From: Pseudobdellovibrionaceae bacterium
GTDB lineage: Bacteria > Bdellovibrionota > Bdellovibrionia > Bdellovibrionales > Bdellovibrionaceae
NCBI GenBank assembly: GCA_947449255.1
Contig: CANFQX010000007.1
Span: forward strand, 62,001 to 126,000
Direction: 5' to 3'
Length of the DNA: 64,000 bases
How positions within the stretch are numbered: the stretch's first letter is position 1; each line of letters begins with the position of its first letter. Of this stretch, positions 5,975 through 50,218 are shown in pieces. The position numbers and the translations under genes were made by a program. Under the pieces are notes generated by a model that worked only from the letters and a program-made list of their open reading frames with translations, was not told the origin of the DNA and ran no database searches.

Positions 5975-8944
5975 TTAAAAACCAGAAATTTGAATGCTGG
6001 TTCCAAAGACGGACTCAGCTCCCTGTGGTGTGTTGAAGGCTTGATAAAATCCAAAAACTAAATTTATCGGAAACACATATCCGAGCGTGGTTTCAAGGCG
6101 AGCTTCAGCTCCAGCACTCCAGAAACTCTGCTTCATATTGATGGATTCAGCCGCGCCCGTTTGTATATTAAAAAACTTTCCATCAGCAGACACGCCATCT
6201 GCTAAGAAAGCTCCCGACAATCTTTTTATAAAGACGGGGTCCGTTCCTGAACCGCGATAAATATTTAAGATGGGGAAGCGGTATTCGAAGTTGAAGTTGA
6301 CGAGATTCTTTCCGTAAATTTGCCCCCTCTGATAGCCGCGAAGAATATATTCAGGCAAATAATTATCAGGAATGAATACAATCGATTCCGTAGATACACC
6401 ATAGGCTGAAGACACATTTTCGGGAATGTAGGCTCCCTTTGCACGCAACATGATTGCATGATGGAGGGGTAAAAAAGCATTAAAATACTTTTCTCCACCT
6501 AAGAGGAACTGCCAATGGTGTAGGAAATTATCTTGGGAGATATAATCAAAAACACCCAAATACCCACCCAGCCCAGACTCGGGGGACACTTGGGCGCCAC
6601 TTTGCTTGTAATTATGGTAATCCAAAATTGTGAAGGGACCGGTTCGCTTGGAGACATTGAGGCCAAAGGTTCGTTCAATGTATTGCCATCCGATTTGCAG
6701 GCTCGAATACCTAGACAACGCAAAAGTGTCTGGAATGACTGATGCCATCAGTGACACTTCAGAGTAGGGATTGTTGATGTCGCCCAAATATGAATTTCTA
6801 TTGTAGGCGGCAAGAGCAAAGGGCAAAGAGGTTGTTTGATTTAAATAGCTGCCCTCTATGCTGGCCTTATTAAGCTGTGTGTCCCAAGAGAGAGTAATGG
6901 CGTAAGAGTGCTTTTTTAAAGGATCAAACCCTGAAGTGGTGGCCTGAAAAACGAGACCTGATTGATTGGTGGATCCGGCAATGAAGGGAATCCAATAGTG
7001 GGGCCACAAATAATCTGTCGCTGAGTATTCAGACAAAGTGGGTGCTTCAAGGGTTTTCAAATCCTTCTCTTTGGAGACTTCTTTTTCAGGATAGCGATCC
7101 CCCATCAAAGAACTAATTTTTGGCAGGCTTGGAGGAGTTGCAGACCAATCTTTTTGAGCAATGGAAGCGATCTGAAACCCTTTAGAAGTCATCGTGGTTG
7201 TGATCAGCTCATTATTCTGAGGGTCTAAGTCGGACATAAAAAATCCGGTCAAAGTGTGCGTGATGGGACGAGGGTTATGTAAATTAAAGTCTGTCAGATA
7301 GACATTTTGGGCGCCATTTTTATTTGAGTTGAATAGCAATCCCGCTTTTGTCATGCGCGCAAAACGTGCATTAGGATAATCTTTGAAGAGACGTTCGGTC
7401 TTGTTGGTTGTTAAAGAATACTTATAGAGGTGTTCAAGTCCATCCCTATTGCGCCAAGAAAAAATAATTTCCTGAGAATTAATAAAACTAGGATAGGATA
7501 TGCGTTCTTCCAGCGGCGAAGAAAAAAGGACTTGAACTGGGAAAGCAGGATCCTTGTATTTCATCAGGGCCAATCCTGTTTGACCGGCTGAAAGTTTCAC
7601 AAAAACGATACTGTTGCCATCCGGAGAAACGGCAGGTTCTCGGGCGCGAAGTCCAAGTCCAAGTTGGGTGCTTTTTTTTGTGGCTAAATCATAAACATGC
7701 AAATCTGAAAAGCTTTCAACTTTATTGATGATGTCGACTTTATCAAAAACAAGACTTTTCGAGTCCGGGAACCAACTTATTCTCTGAATAGATCCTGAAA
7801 TCGCCTCTTCAGAATTGGGCGTTGGAGTGTTTGCAGGATTAAATTTTTCTATAAGATCAGTTGTGCCTTTTTCTCCGTACACATCAAGAAAGCTTTTCTG
7901 TAAATTTGGCGAATCTTTTTTTGTGAGAATTTTTACAGAACGCGATTTGCTGTCATCTTGAGTGATAAAAGCCAAGTGTTTGCCATCGGGTGAAATAGCT
8001 GGAGCGCTAAGGTTGTCGCTGTTTTTTTGGAATTGATGCAGGCTTGTGGGAGGAGTTTGCCTTAGTTTTGTTAATTGATTTTCCACCCGCTCTGAGGTCT
8101 CAGTAAGTGCTCTTGTATACATATTTTTATAGTCAGAATGCAGGAAGGTTATCGCGGGCTGCTCGATAAAGTAAGGTGCACGTCGACCATGGTGCTGATT
8201 GAGCTCGTTGATCACTTGATTGCCATGATCGGCAATCATTTGGCTCCACATGATGGACCCAAAAAGATAGGGACTCATTCCGCCGGGCCAAGTCGGCAGG
8301 ATTTCATTTGCATGAGAAATATCAAAAGTAAATAAAGTGTCGTCAATGACCATAGCCCTAATCACAGAATCTTGAAAGTTGGAGCGAAGGCGCCCATAAT
8401 GGCCCAGTTGTGTTTCCATTTGAACGGCAAGTCCTTCTTTCCACCAAGTTGGCAGCAGCATGTTGGGGGAAACGATGCTGCCAAAAAGAAATCGAAGGGG
8501 TTTCATTATTCCACCGGCGGGCTCCATGTTCAAAATGTGAGTGTACTCATGCGCTAACAGCTCGAAGGCCCAGTCGCCCGTGTCACCCAAACTGTCCTCT
8601 GGTCCAGGCATGACAGGGTAAGCGACGATATGAGGATAGGGGATTCGAGTGGCATAGCCATTCGTGATGTCGGTTTTATCATTAATGAGCACAGAAATCT
8701 TTGGAGGTCGTTCGCTGAAAAAAGGCAACAAGTCGTGATAAGCTTTTTCTAGTTTTTCAGAATAGAGCGCAGCAAGCTCGTGCTGCGGCGTACTGTGAAT
8801 AACGTCGAAATGGGCAGAATGCAGGACTTGCCACTGCAATTCAGGCTTAACTTCCCATTGAGCTTGAAGGGGAGGAGTCATGCAAATGAGAAACAAGGAT
8901 ATCAAAATTGAAGTGAAAATTTGAATTTTTAATAATTTATTCAT
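5975..8944 (-). CDS. large secreted protein: HExxH metalloprotease-like domain, TolB-like propeller, outer-membrane barrel
   Basis: 989 aa. Signal peptide 1-28. Residues about 35-300 resemble a peptidase MA-like gluzincin domain: HEYTH at 132-136 and WWKEGLAV with Glu170 as likely third zinc ligand. Residues about 305-620 contain repeated blade motifs such as SPDGKHLAF, SPDGNSIVF and WFPDSKSLVF, as in TolB/PD40 propellers. The last 300 residues are alternating aromatic strands ending in Phe, typical of a BamA/surface-antigen-like barrel. The protein would sit in the outer membrane with protease and propeller on one side. Similar architectures occur as uncharacterised proteins in Bdellovibrio; substrate unknown. 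Confidence 0.85.
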   Translation of the reverse strand: MNKLLKIQIFTSILISLFLICMTPPLQAQWEVKPELQWQVLHSAHFDVIHSTPQHELAALYSEKLEKAYHDLLPFFSERPPKISVLINDKTDITNGYATRIPYPHIVAYPVMPGPEDSLGDTGDWAFELLAHEYTHILNMEPAGGIMKPLRFLFGSIVSPNMLLPTWWKEGLAVQMETQLGHYGRLRSNFQDSVIRAMVIDDTLFTFDISHANEILPTWPGGMSPYLFGSIMWSQMIADHGNQVINELNQHHGRRAPYFIEQPAITFLHSDYKNMYTRALTETSERVENQLTKLRQTPPTSLHQFQKNSDNLSAPAISPDGKHLAFITQDDSKSRSVKILTKKDSPNLQKSFLDVYGEKGTTDLIEKFNPANTPTPNSEEAISGSIQRISWFPDSKSLVFDKVDIINKVESFSDLHVYDLATKKSTQLGLGLRAREPAVSPDGNSIVFVKLSAGQTGLALMKYKDPAFPVQVLFSSPLEERISYPSFINSQEIIFSWRNRDGLEHLYKYSLTTNKTERLFKDYPNARFARMTKAGLLFNSNKNGAQNVYLTDFNLHNPRPITHTLTGFFMSDLDPQNNELITTTMTSKGFQIASIAQKDWSATPPSLPKISSLMGDRYPEKEVSKEKDLKTLEAPTLSEYSATDYLWPHYWIPFIAGSTNQSGLVFQATTSGFDPLKKHSYAITLSWDTQLNKASIEGSYLNQTTSLPFALAAYNRNSYLGDINNPYSEVSLMASVIPDTFALSRYSSLQIGWQYIERTFGLNVSKRTGPFTILDYHNYKQSGAQVSPESGLGGYLGVFDYISQDNFLHHWQFLLGGEKYFNAFLPLHHAIMLRAKGAYIPENVSSAYGVSTESIVFIPDNYLPEYILRGYQRGQIYGKNLVNFNFEYRFPILNIYRGSGTDPVFIKRLSGAFLADGVSADGKFFNIQTGAAESINMKQSFWSAGAEARLETTLGYVFPINLVFGFYQAFNTPQGAESVFGTSIQISGF

Positions 8945-43118: not shown

Positions 43119-43958
43119 ATGTTTAAAGCTAAGTCCATCTTTATTTTTGCTGCTTTTTCTTTTTTTACGATTTTTGCTTTTCAGAATTGTTCAAAATCCT
43201 TTTTTCTGCCTTCTCATGGAATTCTAGATAATAGCAGCTTTTCCTCGCAAAGTGTACTTGCTGTAACAGAGATGAATACTCCTGTGGAATTCACGCTGCC
43301 TCATCAGGGAAATTTGTCTGGTGTTAAAATTGATTTTGCGGGTGCAAACGGTGTCAAAATTAATGGCACTCTTGAGGTTGTTGATGCTGCTAATTTTAAA
43401 ATCAAGTACCAGCCTAATTTTGGTTTTCGTGGAAGTGAATATGTTGAAGTGACTGTCGCTGATGTTTATGGAAATAAAGTTCAAGTCTATGCTAATATTT
43501 CTGTTGGGAATCCACTGAGTCAATTGTCTCCAGCCTTAGCCATTCGAGGAATGGGTTGTATTCAGTGCCATGCGAATGTGCAATCAAATATCATTACGGA
43601 TTTTGGCTACAAGGGAAACGGTCAGGGACTAGATTATTTCTTCAATCAAAATCCATCAGGTCATTGGTATAAGAGTGGTGGCGTCTATGGTGATCACGCG
43701 CTTACTTTTAATACAATGAAGCTCAATTCAGGCCAAATAATCGTTCCTCAAGCGATCTTGCCAGACAAAGTAGGAAATGACTTTAAATTAAAGACCTTGA
43801 CTGAATATATCGAGTCCCAAATGAAAGTATCAGCTAATCCAGGGACAATGAGCACTAAGGTCACAACGGTAAAATCAGTTTATATCGGTGCACCGACTGA
43901 TAGTAATTTAGAAAATGCTTTCCAATTGAGAATGAACTCAGCTGTGATGGGGATTTAG
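43119..43958 (+). CDS. c-type-cytochrome-like lipoprotein, 5' part of a frameshifted gene
   Basis: 279 aa until a stop at 43958. Lipoprotein-like start (FAFQNCSK, Cys24); an Ig/cadherin-like domain at about 45-130 (NTPVEFTLPHQGN, GFRGSEYVEVTVADVYGN); then MGCIQCHANV with the haem-binding CIQCH at 147-151. The other frame continues the protein without a break from about 43940 to 44647, so this is the first half of one ancestral gene of about 510 codons. GAGGGAT precedes the ATG. A sequencing error, a recent mutation or a shift site are all possible. Confidence 0.7.
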   Translation: MFKAKSIFIFAAFSFFTIFAFQNCSKSFFLPSHGILDNSSFSSQSVLAVTEMNTPVEFTLPHQGNLSGVKIDFAGANGVKINGTLEVVDAANFKIKYQPNFGFRGSEYVEVTVADVYGNKVQVYANISVGNPLSQLSPALAIRGMGCIQCHANVQSNIITDFGYKGNGQGLDYFFNQNPSGHWYKSGGVYGDHALTFNTMKLNSGQIIVPQAILPDKVGNDFKLKTLTEYIESQMKVSANPGTMSTKVTTVKSVYIGAPTDSNLENAFQLRMNSAVMGI

Positions 43959-45509: not shown

Positions 45510-46334
45510 ATGAATCTAGAACTGCCTTTAAATGAATACACCTACATTGCTTTTGATACCGAAACCAGCGGAGCCTATCCGGTGGGCTTTGATATTGTCG
45601 AGTTAGGCGCCGTTAAATATTATAAAGGGCAGGAAATTGGAAGTCTGCAGTTCTTGCTAAAGCCGAGAGAGCCAATGAGTGATTTCATTATCGGGATTCA
45701 TGGAATCACCAATGAAATGGTTGCTGATTCACCATTGATGAAAGATAAAGTGCACGAAATTTACGAATTTTTTAGGGGGGCCATCGTGATGGCTCATCAC
45801 TGTCCCTTTGATTTAGGATTTCTAGCTATAGAATATGAAAAAGTGGGACTGCCTTTGCCTCCTGAACCAGCGCTTTGTACAAGTTTGCTTGCACGAAAGT
45901 TAGTTCATGGCGTTGAGAATCACAAACTTCAAACTTTGGTTAAGCATTTTTCAATAGATGGTGGACAGGCACACCGGGCTTATGATGATGCTAAATCTTG
46001 TCTAAGCGTGGGTTTAGAATGTTTCAAGAAGTTGGGTGACGACGCGACTCTTGCTCAAGCGATAAAAAGTCAAGGCAAGCAACTTTGGTGGCGAGATTAT
46101 TCTTTGGCAAAAAATGAGAGTTCACTCAAAACGATGATAGAGGCCATTCAATCGAAAAAAGACATCGAGATGGTCTATCAGGGTGGCTCTGCAAAAGGTG
46201 AGATTCGCAAAGTTAAACCCATAGGTATTGTTCGGAATCCTGATGGGGATTTCCTTCAGGCCTTTTGCTTTAAAGATCAAAAAGACAAGAGATATTATCT
46301 GACCCGAATAAAAGATGTTGCCGTCGTTTATTAG
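45510..46334 (+). CDS. DEDDh 3'-5' exonuclease (DnaQ/epsilon-like) with WYL-like tail
   Basis: 274 aa. Exo I is AFDTETSGAYP (Asp16, Glu18), Exo II lies in VMAHHCPFDLGFL and Exo III in QAHRAYDDAKSC (His and Asp), so the DEDDh set is complete. The last 65 residues (from about 210) do not belong to the exonuclease: IEMVYQGGSAKGEIRKVKPIG, then FLQAFCFKDQKDKRYYLTRI, follow the WYL pattern (Y...R.v.P, dry strand, R-y-l-x-R-I). WYL domains sense ligands or nucleic acid in defence regulators and nucleases. Confidence 0.88.
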   Translation: MNLELPLNEYTYIAFDTETSGAYPVGFDIVELGAVKYYKGQEIGSLQFLLKPREPMSDFIIGIHGITNEMVADSPLMKDKVHEIYEFFRGAIVMAHHCPFDLGFLAIEYEKVGLPLPPEPALCTSLLARKLVHGVENHKLQTLVKHFSIDGGQAHRAYDDAKSCLSVGLECFKKLGDDATLAQAIKSQGKQLWWRDYSLAKNESSLKTMIEAIQSKKDIEMVYQGGSAKGEIRKVKPIGIVRNPDGDFLQAFCFKDQKDKRYYLTRIKDVAVVY

Positions 46335-46399: not shown

Positions 46400-47356
46400 C
46401 TATTCGGTAGGTTTTGCTGTTTTAGTTGAAACTGATTCATCAAATTCCACGACATTGATCATTCGCTCTCTCTTGATGGCTAATAATCTTAATCGGACCT
46501 GTTCGGCAAGCTCTTCGAGATGCTGGAACTCATCGCCATTTCTTAGTTTGAGGGGCTTTGCAGTGCCCTCAAGAATTTCTTTTAAATACCGTTCAAAGGC
46601 AAAAAGTGGCCCCGCAATACGATGAGAGATCACCCGACCCACTGAAAATAAAATGGCACAAAAAGCGATGCAAATAATGGCATAGGTGATGATAAAGGGC
46701 GTAAGAAATTTATGCATCAGCTGCAAATTATTGCCAACCAATTCCTGGATAGTCACTCGCAAGAATGTGTAGGAAAAAACCAGGCTGATAAGTGTTAAAC
46801 TTAGACCCACGCCCATTAAAATAAAACAGTACTTAATTTGAAAAGTAAAATTCACCCAATACTGTCTCCTGGCATTGTATTCTGGCCAAATTTTATCACC
46901 TTCGCGTATGATGATGAAGATGATTAAAATGTATCCAACCCACTGCAAGGCATCGGCGAGGTTGAATGCGGGACTCATCCAACTTCCCTTACCGATGATG
47001 ATGAAATCAACAACATAGCCCCAAATAATTCTGTCGGTGACATTTCCGATGATTCCACCAATTAAAATTGATAGTCCGGACCTCAAAGTAAGGGACTTGA
47101 TTGGTAGCAAATACTGGATCAAAGCATAAGTACACAGAAGAAACGCACCGCCAGTTGAAAGTGATACGATTCGAAGAACAGCAGGTAAGTCAGAAAAAAG
47201 CCCTAGCATTGCCCCATGATTGTGGTGCAAAATAAAACTAAAGGGGCCAACTGTGTGTGCCTCTGTCAAACTAGCGGCCCAGGACTTGGTAACACGGTCA
47301 ACAAGCCAAGTTGCTAAAAGAGGCAGAATTACAATAAGCCATTCACGTTTTTTCAT
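46400..47356 (-). CDS. lspA: lipoprotein signal peptidase (LspA) fused to a two-helix HAMP module
   Basis: 318 aa, about twice the usual LspA. Residues 1-155 are a complete signal peptidase II: HHNHGAMLGLF, GNVTDRI with Asp108 and FNLADAL with Asp135 as the aspartic dyad, four membrane helices. Residues 165-318 add RRQYWVNFTFQIKYC, two more membrane helices, a HAMP region (ISHRIAGPLFAFERYL, then GDEFQHLEEL) and a short tail. LspA cuts the signal from prolipoproteins; the HAMP part could regulate it or be a separate sensor stalk. The frame is continuous with no start site between the two parts. Confidence 0.92.
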   Translation of the reverse strand: MKKREWLIVILPLLATWLVDRVTKSWAASLTEAHTVGPFSFILHHNHGAMLGLFSDLPAVLRIVSLSTGGAFLLCTYALIQYLLPIKSLTLRSGLSILIGGIIGNVTDRIIWGYVVDFIIIGKGSWMSPAFNLADALQWVGYILIIFIIIREGDKIWPEYNARRQYWVNFTFQIKYCFILMGVGLSLTLISLVFSYTFLRVTIQELVGNNLQLMHKFLTPFIITYAIICIAFCAILFSVGRVISHRIAGPLFAFERYLKEILEGTAKPLKLRNGDEFQHLEELAEQVRLRLLAIKRERMINVVEFDESVSTKTAKPTE

Positions 47357-47486
47357 ATAGAAAAGTCTATCAACCAGAACCCTACTTGCGAATTGATTTT
47401 TTGCTGGCTATTATCGTCTGGACCATTGGACATCATTTATTTTAAATGGACTAGCCTTTGGAGATATTTTGAGAGGGATTTTTACC

Positions 47487-48917
47487 ATGAAGTCTTTAAT
47501 ATTTTTTATTTTTTTATTCTCGAGCGTGCAAAGTCTAGCTAAGAAAAACAGTGACGACGCAGGCAATATTTTGCATGAGTTAGAATCCCTCGCTAAAGCC
47601 CATGGTGTGAAGTTGAAAGATCTTTCGATGTACGCAACGGCGGGAGAGGGAGACAATTCAAAATCTTTAATAGATATTAATTCCAAAGAGGTCAAAATTC
47701 CCGCCTCAATCACCAAAATTGCTACCGCCTCGGCTGTTCTAGCTAACTTTCAGCCAGGATTTAAATTTAAAACTCAAATTCTTGGGCAAGGTCAAATTAA
47801 GAATAAGGTGCTAAAAGGAAATCTCTATTTAAAGGGCGGGGGTGACCCTTCTTTTGTGTCTGAAAACATGTGGTTTTTGGTGAATGCTTTTACAAGAAAG
47901 CAGATTTCAAAAGTCGAAGGAGATATTGTCGTTGATGATTCTTTGTTTGATAAAATGCGCTACGATGTCAGTCGCCAAAAAGAGCGGGTCGACCGAGCCT
48001 ATGATGCTCCCGTGGGGGCGATGTCATTCAATTGGAATTCAATTAATATATTTGTTCAACCGACTCAGCCTGGACAAGAGGCTTTAGTTTTTGCCGATCC
48101 TCAGAATGATTATATTAGACTTATCGCAAAGGCAAAAACAACCTCTGGCGGTGAAAATCATCTTATAGCAGATCGACAGGAAGACCAAAAATTTGAGGGT
48201 GATGTGATTCATGTCAGTGGAAGCATCGGAAAGTCGAATAGAGAGATCGCAATCTTTAAAAACATCACTCAACCAGACCTGTGGTCGGGATACAATCTAA
48301 GAACATTTCTAGCGCAGCGAGGAGTTACTGTCACGGGTTCTATAAAAAATGGAATTACACCTGATTCAGCGGATGTTTTAGCTGAGTGTGAAAGTAAATC
48401 TATTGAACAGATTCTTGGTGATATGAATAAGTTTTCAAATAATTATGTTTCCGAAATGTTGACTAAAAATATGGGTGCCCTCAAAAAAAATAAGGGTGCA
48501 ACATTAGCCGATGGAGTTCTTCAGATTCGGGAGCATTTAAAAGAAATTGGTTTACCAGAAAATCAATTTCAAATTGAGAGTCCCTCTGGGTTAACTCGGG
48601 ACAATAAGTTTTCGGCCTACGCCATTTGGAAGATTCTTCAGCACTTGCGCATTGATTTTAGGGTCCAACCAGAGTTTTTATCTTCCTTGCCAATAGCTGG
48701 AGTCGACGGGACTTTAAAGAAGCGGATGAAGCAATCACCCGCTGAGCGCTGGGTAAGGGCGAAAACAGGATATATCGATAATGTGGTCTCCTTAGCCGGA
48801 TATGCTGGACTAGATAATGGTCAAGTCATTTCTTTTGGCTTCATCTACAATGGAGCGGCAGATGAGGCCGAAGTGAGACATTTTTTTGATAAATTACTTA
48901 TATTTATGGTAAAATAA
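47487..48917 (+). CDS. dacB: D-Ala-D-Ala carboxypeptidase/endopeptidase PBP4 (family S13)
   Basis: 476 aa from ATG 47487, at the start of the signal peptide MKSLIFFIFLFSSVQSLA; a TTG at 47469 would add six residues. Catalytic motifs: PASITK (Ser74, Lys77), SNN in FSNNYVSEML, and KTG in RAKTGYIDNV. PBP4 trims peptide crosslinks and side chains; in Bdellovibrio two PBP4-type enzymes round prey cells during entry (established for that genus, not shown here). It is divergent from lspA. Confidence 0.94.
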   Translation: MKSLIFFIFLFSSVQSLAKKNSDDAGNILHELESLAKAHGVKLKDLSMYATAGEGDNSKSLIDINSKEVKIPASITKIATASAVLANFQPGFKFKTQILGQGQIKNKVLKGNLYLKGGGDPSFVSENMWFLVNAFTRKQISKVEGDIVVDDSLFDKMRYDVSRQKERVDRAYDAPVGAMSFNWNSINIFVQPTQPGQEALVFADPQNDYIRLIAKAKTTSGGENHLIADRQEDQKFEGDVIHVSGSIGKSNREIAIFKNITQPDLWSGYNLRTFLAQRGVTVTGSIKNGITPDSADVLAECESKSIEQILGDMNKFSNNYVSEMLTKNMGALKKNKGATLADGVLQIREHLKEIGLPENQFQIESPSGLTRDNKFSAYAIWKILQHLRIDFRVQPEFLSSLPIAGVDGTLKKRMKQSPAERWVRAKTGYIDNVVSLAGYAGLDNGQVISFGFIYNGAADEAEVRHFFDKLLIFMVK

Positions 48918-48949: not shown

Positions 48950-50218
48950 ATGAATATGGCTAAGTTTGTTTTTTCTAGTGTAGTTTTCTTAAATTCAGCA
49001 ATTGGATACGCTGAAAAAGGAATCGATGTTAATAATGTTGCCGTCACTCCTGTTGTTGCCTCAGCGGCGGTTCCTGTTTTAACTTCGACTCAAGATTCGA
49101 CAGTGATTGTTTCAAATGAAATAAAAAAATCTGACACTTCTCAGAATATAGACAGTCGACCTTGGCGAGCTCCTGATTTTACCAACCAAAAAGAAGCCCT
49201 GGGCTATTCTGAAAATAGCTTTGTTGTCCCTAAGGGTATGGAAGGACAGGTTCAGTTCTGGATAAGTGTGTATTCAAAATACTCATCCACAGAGGGCGTC
49301 ATTCATGATTTGGATAATGTCGAAAATATATATGAAATAGTGGATCTCAAAGGCTTAAAGACAGAAAAAGAAAAACAGAAAAAAATTGATCAGGCTAAAA
49401 AGGCTGTCGCTGTTCGATTAAAGCTTGATAAAGAATCTGAGGACCGACTGCGATTTCAATTAGGCCAAAAAGACCGAATGCAAGATGCTATTTTTAATTC
49501 AGGTCGCTATTTAGAGGAGATGGAAAAAGTATTTCGTGAAGCAAAGCTGCCTGCTGAATTGACCAGGTTGGCCTTTGTCGAAAGCGCCTTCAATGTGATG
49601 GCCAGATCCAAAGTCGGAGCGAGCGGAATATGGCAAATAATGCCCTACACGGCACGCCCTTACAGAATGATGTCCGCAGCGGTAGATAAGCGAAATCATC
49701 CAGCGGATGCGACTAAATTGGCAGCAAAGCTGTTAAAGCAAAATTACTCAATGCTGGAGTCGTGGCCACTTGCTGTGACCGGGTACAATCATGGACCAAC
49801 CGGCGTAAAAAAAATGACAGTCGAGTACAAGTCTAAAGATTTAGCGCATCTCATAGAAAACGTGGATTCCCGCAAAAGTTTTGGTTTTGCGTCGAGGAAT
49901 TTTTATGCCTGCTTTTTGGCAGCCTTGGAAGTTGAGCGCAATGCTAAAAAATACTTCAGTGAAATTACATGGTCTAAGCCATTTAATTCACAAGATTTAA
50001 AATTGCCAATACCAACAAAATATTCGGTCATACTTAAGTTGTTTGATGGCGATAAGGGAAAAGCTCAATTGTTTAATCCGCATTTAAATCAAATAGTGAC
50101 TCGAAAAGGACATCCCATTCCAGCTCAAACTGTAATTTCTATCCCTAAAGAGAAATACAGTGTCGCATTGATTTCTTTATCACACAGAGGTCGATTTATC
50201 GCCAATGACGATAAATAA
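48950..50218 (+). CDS. lytic murein transglycosylase, MltD-like
   Basis: 422 aa, signal peptide 1-21 and a polar linker to about 95. The SLT domain has LTRLAFVESAFN with catalytic Glu211, SKVGASGIWQIMPYTARPY and LAVTGYNHGPTGV. A C-terminal strand pair (KGHPIPAQTVISIP) looks like a remnant LysM-type or linker unit. Cleaves glycan strands to anhydro-muropeptides. Same strand as dacB, 32 bases after its stop, so both are probably cotranscribed wall hydrolases. Confidence 0.92.
   Translation: MNMAKFVFSSVVFLNSAIGYAEKGIDVNNVAVTPVVASAAVPVLTSTQDSTVIVSNEIKKSDTSQNIDSRPWRAPDFTNQKEALGYSENSFVVPKGMEGQVQFWISVYSKYSSTEGVIHDLDNVENIYEIVDLKGLKTEKEKQKKIDQAKKAVAVRLKLDKESEDRLRFQLGQKDRMQDAIFNSGRYLEEMEKVFREAKLPAELTRLAFVESAFNVMARSKVGASGIWQIMPYTARPYRMMSAAVDKRNHPADATKLAAKLLKQNYSMLESWPLAVTGYNHGPTGVKKMTVEYKSKDLAHLIENVDSRKSFGFASRNFYACFLAALEVERNAKKYFSEITWSKPFNSQDLKLPIPTKYSVILKLFDGDKGKAQLFNPHLNQIVTRKGHPIPAQTVISIPKEKYSVALISLSHRGRFIANDDK

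Follow-up and report, generated by a model that had tools for sequence, protein, structure and literature searches.

A second signal peptidase II of Bdellovibrionota carries a two-helix HAMP module

Signal peptidase II (LspA) is an antibiotic target and is regarded as a housekeeping enzyme that is simple and free of regulation. It customarily occurs as a stand-alone protein of about 160–190 residues, a size that is a habit of the family and no requirement of catalysis. More than one LspA is found in the predatory bacterium Myxococcus xanthus, which possesses LspA1–4, with LspA3 and LspA4 belonging to an antibiotic cluster (PMC8689077). In Bdellovibrio, the lipobox proteins Bd0875, Bd3285, Bd0314 and Bd3279 act on or at the prey (PMC11003981, PMC10127604), so that the predatory switch could include control over how they are processed. 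Here we describe a gene in a window of 64,000 nucleotides from a Pseudobdellovibrionaceae bacterium, in which LspA continues into a putative signalling module. Our literature search on LspA with HAMP and on Bdellovibrio LspA returned no description of such a protein; since it covered few of the subscription papers, a prior report is possible, and the conserved LspA–HAMP fusion is apparently undescribed so far.

The peptidase domain and its HAMP tail

The original prediction had read this gene as a complete LspA with both catalytic aspartates that runs in frame into two further membrane helices and a HAMP region lacking an output domain, and had pointed to residues 155–165 as the place where a stop or frameshift might betray two separate genes. 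A check of the reading frame found neither, and the gene forms a single open frame (Table 1). Residues 14–150 match PF01252 with 81.8 bits (cut-off 25), the TIGR00077 equivalog cut-off is missed (50.4 versus 73.95 bits), and with its 318 residues and fused tail the protein departs from the usual LspA format. Alignment to the solved LspA structures places D117 and D135 at the catalytic positions, and each is conserved in 89 of 90 fusions. D20, K24, N46, G48, N105, D108, R109, N132 and A134 of the active site are present as well. All 12 active-site residues checked are retained in 81 of 92 fusion sequences, and the conservation of active-site residues extends to fusions that are only 30–40% identical. 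Since it is retained in nearly all species, the LspA half would be expected to cleave diacylglyceryl-prolipoproteins.

Assignment of the tail by Pfam failed, as the fusion itself yields no PF00672 match at E ≤ 1 and HAMP is not among the Pfam families of 64 fusions. We thus replaced direct assignment by homology via stand-alone modules. While the mixed alignments A1 and A2 were too diverged to serve as genome-scan profiles, A3 worked. A profile made from fusion tails alone matches 84 stand-alone open reading frames of about 120–310 residues in many phyla, and 26 of 53 such homologues match PF00672 at E ≤ 0.01, the best with 52.5 bits. Because these homologues match the family, the tail (residues ~155–309, with no output domain behind it) is a real HAMP too diverged for direct Pfam detection, and this part of the original prediction holds by homology and by the predicted structure. 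Q173, G249, P250, R272 and D275 are invariant over 48 fused and stand-alone modules, and S244 and H245 are conserved together with G249 and P250 in the helix 6/AS1 region. The hallmarks R163, Q173, G249, P250, R272 and D275 are common to the fusions and to stand-alone modules of many phyla, indicating that the module retains its ancestral constraint within the fusion.

An AlphaFold2 model built on 64 homologues (pLDDT 89.9) agrees with this division of the protein. Its residues 1–150 superpose on PaLspA (5dir_A) with Z 16.9 and an rmsd of 2.9 over 148 residues, and the tail consists of a helix at 170–207, a helix at 211–263, a connector at 264–278 and a final helix at 279–309. Four membrane helices in LspA plus the helices 170–207 and 211–263 give the six-helix topology that had been proposed. 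The tail superposes on the TM1-TM2-HAMP part of WalK over 143 residues (rmsd 2.4 Å, Z 8.7), and a model of the module by itself matches WalK likewise (Z 9.4); middling Z values are usual for helical proteins, and the WalK match lies 1–2 Z units above unrelated rows. Compared to Af1503 HAMP crystal structures, the module-only model aligns 48–50 of 52 residues at about 2.5–2.7 Å, with 2y20 matched over 50 of 52 residues (rmsd 2.5). Since HAMP domains generally dimerise, this part of the fusion probably dimerises too.

About three residues separate the two membrane helices of the tail, and the part exposed outside the membrane is thus a short helical hairpin that carries no sensor. The idea that a periplasmic signal tunes the enzyme is therefore weak: the hairpin extends for only a few turns, and of the possible inputs a periplasmic one has the least support. 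An input from the cytoplasm or the membrane fits no worse, and neither does LspA acting as the input.

Table 1. Coordinates of the fusion gene, its parts and neighbours in the window, and of orthologues with a decayed peptidase half
Feature	Position	Strand	Basis
LspA–HAMP fusion gene (second lspA paralogue), 318 aa	46400..47356	minus	ATG start, open frame
Peptidase_A8 domain, residues 1–152, four membrane helices and beta-cradle	46901..47356	minus	PF01252
First catalytic Asp, D117 (PaLspA D124)	47006..47008	minus	alignment to solved LspA structures
Second catalytic Asp, D135 (PaLspA D143)	46952..46954	minus	alignment to solved LspA structures
Cytoplasmic linker, residues 153–169, conserved W157 and R163; module start	46850..46900	minus	conservation
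Membrane helix 5, residues 170–207	46736..46849	minus	predicted helix, pLDDT ~90; hydropathy peak 177–195
Membrane helix 6 into HAMP AS1, residues 211–263, motif SHRIAGP	46568..46726	minus	predicted helix
HAMP connector and AS2, residues 264–309, LRxGDEF..LE	46430..46567	minus	model and conserved columns
dacB, PBP4-type D-Ala-D-Ala carboxypeptidase, divergent neighbour	47469..48917	plus	PF02113, 283 bits
SLT lytic transglycosylase, beyond dacB	48950..50218	plus	PF01464; conserved context
RNase_T-type exonuclease with C-terminal WYL domain, convergent neighbour	45510..46334	plus	domain matches; conserved context
Fusion orthologue with decayed LspA half (G126)	L240:4718-5611		
Fusion orthologue with decayed LspA half (G123)	L236:4361-5239		
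Fusion orthologue with decayed LspA half (G124)	L237:4150-5019		
Fusion orthologue with decayed LspA half (G125)	L238:4334-5236		

Distribution, origin and genomic setting

Alignment with related genomes reveals that the in-frame fusion is kept in 126 of 141 genomes of the order (single-ORF matches, full length) and in 98 of the 103 that are at least 90% complete. Beyond the order, the three other genomes of the class all contain it, as do roughly half of those of one family of another class (f12), and in the remaining phylum it is rare (all as judged by E-value); out-of-class loci fetched to check these calls were true fusions by ORF. An alternative held that relatives carry two genes which a sequencing or assembly error had joined here. 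Its probability is practically nil, as the identical in-frame fusion recurs in the order and in other classes across independent assemblies, including single-contig genomes. This conservation of the frame rules out chance as well as an assembly artefact. In 11 genomes of other phyla, the query matches separate genes, with a stand-alone module in 11 of 11 and a separate LspA in most. A search at 1e-18 of 297 genomes of one other phylum, which very diverged fusions could escape, gave no fusion.

A tree of 59 LspA domains places the fused ones on one side of a single branch (support 99/97, with the bootstrap not fully settled). The simplest history is that the fusion arose once in the Bdellovibrionota line and was later lost in places, and it may have been transferred into f12. 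Both halves are under purifying selection, with dN far below dS in each (e.g. 0.003 versus 0.34 and 0.006 versus 0.55).

The fusion is not the sole lspA of the cell. When we searched the same genome for another lspA, we found a canonical copy (131.8 bits) directly after ileS on a different contig (C5), with lgt about 1.5 kb beyond it (ileS and lgt named from their translations). Hence, the view of the fusion as "the" lspA has to be given up. The LspA domains of the two copies are 34% identical. A strong canonical lspA is present in 103 of 103 good-quality genomes of the order, and the genomes with only a weaker-type lspA are few and all less than 90% complete. Since good genomes always keep the housekeeping gene, the fusion performs another task. 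Some genomes of the order (G038, G048, G066, G088, G084, G069 and G053; loci L221–L227) additionally contain a third, separate LspA clade of about 160–230 residues and about 110 bits with the motif ENPGAFLS.

The fusion gene is monocistronic by layout, and a promoter and terminator scan at the gene gave no signal above shuffles. A dacB gene lies within 2.5 kb of the fusion at 28 of 29 near loci, at 29 of 38 other loci of the class and at 0 of 18 loci of the other class. The same dacB–fusion arrangement is found in G004, where dacB probably is Bd3244, a constitutively expressed housekeeping dacB (PMC3276566).

Readings of the fusion: control, sensing or spare enzyme

We consider it roughly an even call that the fusion is a second signal peptidase II specific to Bdellovibrionota, a competent LspA that was joined once to a two-helix HAMP module and is coupled to a partner. 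The LspA half would act at the outer face of the inner membrane alongside the housekeeping LspA. Helices 5 and 6 with the cytoplasmic HAMP hairpin would pair with another molecule of the fusion or with a stand-alone HAMP module of the same cell, and a cytoplasmic or membrane partner would set the HAMP bundle and thereby change LspA activity or its access to substrates. Since LspA is the only catalytic part and an output domain is absent in most species, control from HAMP to LspA is the most economical assumption, and we infer that the halves are coupled in this direction rather than the reverse. Intact active sites, the LspA fold, the grouping of the fused domains in one clade apart from canonical LspA, the excess of dS over dN and the always-kept housekeeping lspA favour this control of a second peptidase, as do the hallmarks shared with stand-alone modules, the WalK-like layout and the occurrence of the two parts as separate genes in other phyla. 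Against it we count that no input domain or partner for the fusion was identified and that the gene is monocistronic.

Candidates for a partner may be sought among the stand-alone two-helix HAMP proteins, which mostly comprise 140–230 residues and occur in Deltaproteobacteria, Spirochaetes, Omnitrophota and others. The genome to which the window belongs encodes two of them with 145–147 residues (L095:1288-1731 on C1 and L096:1498-1935 on C17), and these homologues of the fusion tail are possible partners of the fusion. In G039, the fusion is immediately followed by the gene of a stand-alone module (L057:6452-6961 and 6983-7978). LspA was absent from all 80 stand-alone module loci fetched, their neighbours were varied envelope genes with no common function, and we found no role for these modules, which are spread over many phyla; the fusion argument thus gives them a testable partner.

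A departure from the general pattern comes from four reduced genomes of one family (G123–G126, 1.4–2.0 Mb). Here the LspA half of the fusion no longer has the N-x-G motif and is missing further residues of the active site, in G126 including both catalytic aspartates (D117N, D135V), and all module hallmarks stay. As dacB is found beside three of these four copies, those three look like true orthologues. The decay of the peptidase half with persisting hallmarks indicates that, at least in this family, the module has a value that does not depend on peptidase activity, and that the function of the fusion is not everywhere confined to peptidase output, which counts against control of the peptidase by HAMP as a general explanation. 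The reverse case also occurs and was likewise counted against it: an extra diverged fusion copy of G118 (L061:5192-6136) keeps the active site and has lost the module hallmarks.

These pseudo-peptidase lineages turn the opposite direction, from LspA to HAMP, into a serious rival, although we regard it as possible rather than probable. LspA would then be the input, and binding or cleavage of a prolipoprotein or signal peptide would shift helices 5–6 and the HAMP part and so reach a cytoplasmic or membrane partner, with cleavage being secondary and lost in some lineages. Apart from the decayed copies and the dacB that three of them keep, such sensing would fit three g57 pairs in which, contrary to the usual pattern, the module is better conserved than the LspA half, as is the case in only 7.6% of control pairs. 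It would also fit a fusion of 485 residues in G287 (L081:6421-7878), where an AhpC-TSA domain (39 bits) follows in frame after the HAMP part, at the position where an output would sit; this domain is possibly an output or a redox input. A pure binding sensor would not need the active-site residues, however, and these are kept in nearly all other fusions, nor is there a partner or an output domain in most species. That the fusion senses lipoprotein flux in particular, with LspA as the receptor end of HAMP, prolipoprotein processing being sensed across the membrane and a dead peptidase kept only for signalling in some reduced lineages, is unlikely in our estimate.

The question of substrates bears on a third explanation, which we judge improbable: the fusion may be a reserve LspA, or one specialised for a class of substrates or against an inhibitor, with the tail as a mere membrane anchor or oligomerisation handle. 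Proteins with the unusual FQNC lipobox, common in this order, would be candidate substrates, and LspA inhibitors of competing myxobacteria a candidate pressure. In support of this, FQNC is enriched over a reversed-pattern control in the order (13 versus 3 in G000, 28 versus 1 in G035 and in G061, 49 versus 5 in G039) and is near background in most of the phylum outside it, about 11 of 36 FQNC sites in G004 end a signal-peptide-like N-terminus, and M. xanthus has extra LspA copies within its myxovirescin cluster (PMC8689077). However, FQNC is also rich in two genomes in which no fusion was detected (G073, 12 versus 4; G048, 12 versus 2), and the fusion-bearing Bacteriovoracia are not enriched. 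FQNC proteins as a dedicated substrate class are hence suggestive at the level of the order and contradicted by these cases, and we treat the link between FQNC and the fusion as a lead. Furthermore, no cluster for an LspA-inhibiting antibiotic lies beside the fusion, its neighbours being the exonuclease–WYL gene, dacB and the SLT gene, and a plain anchor would not retain the HAMP hallmark residues. The window itself encodes one FQNC protein (43119-43958). Many lipoproteins of the window had been expected to be clients of the enzyme; a simple lipobox scan found only about 2–4 lipobox-like open reading frames, and even these are no evidence of specific clients because the housekeeping enzyme could process any of them.

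Comparison with known LspA and HAMP systems

A conserved second LspA on a signalling module suggests that lipoprotein maturation can be regulated post-translationally and that lipoprotein processing in Bdellovibrio-type predators is wired to a signalling switch, and the fusion opens a direct test of whether such regulation exists. Should LspA instead be the sensing part, HAMP signalling would gain a novel type of input domain, and the protein would be the first LspA known to us that plays a regulatory role.

With LspA (MEROPS A8, PF01252; PaLspA 5dir, SaLspA 6ryo), the fusion has the four-helix core, the beta-cradle, the Asp dyad and the predicted fold in common; it differs in about 150 extra residues, which make up two membrane helices and HAMP, and in not lying beside ileS or lgt. 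With the HAMP domains (PF00672) of WalK and Af1503, it shares the order TM-AS1-connector-AS2, the AS1 proline and the DE at AS2, but it has no sensor between the membrane helices and no kinase, MCP or cyclase output, and instead a peptidase is attached. The stand-alone HAMP proteins are homologous over the whole fusion module, including the R, FQ, SHRIAGP and LRxGDxF motifs, but are encoded by separate genes. Like M. xanthus, the predators bearing the fusion have more than one LspA; we know of no HAMP tail on LspA1–4 of that species, and the fusion gene adjoins cell-wall genes rather than an antibiotic cluster.
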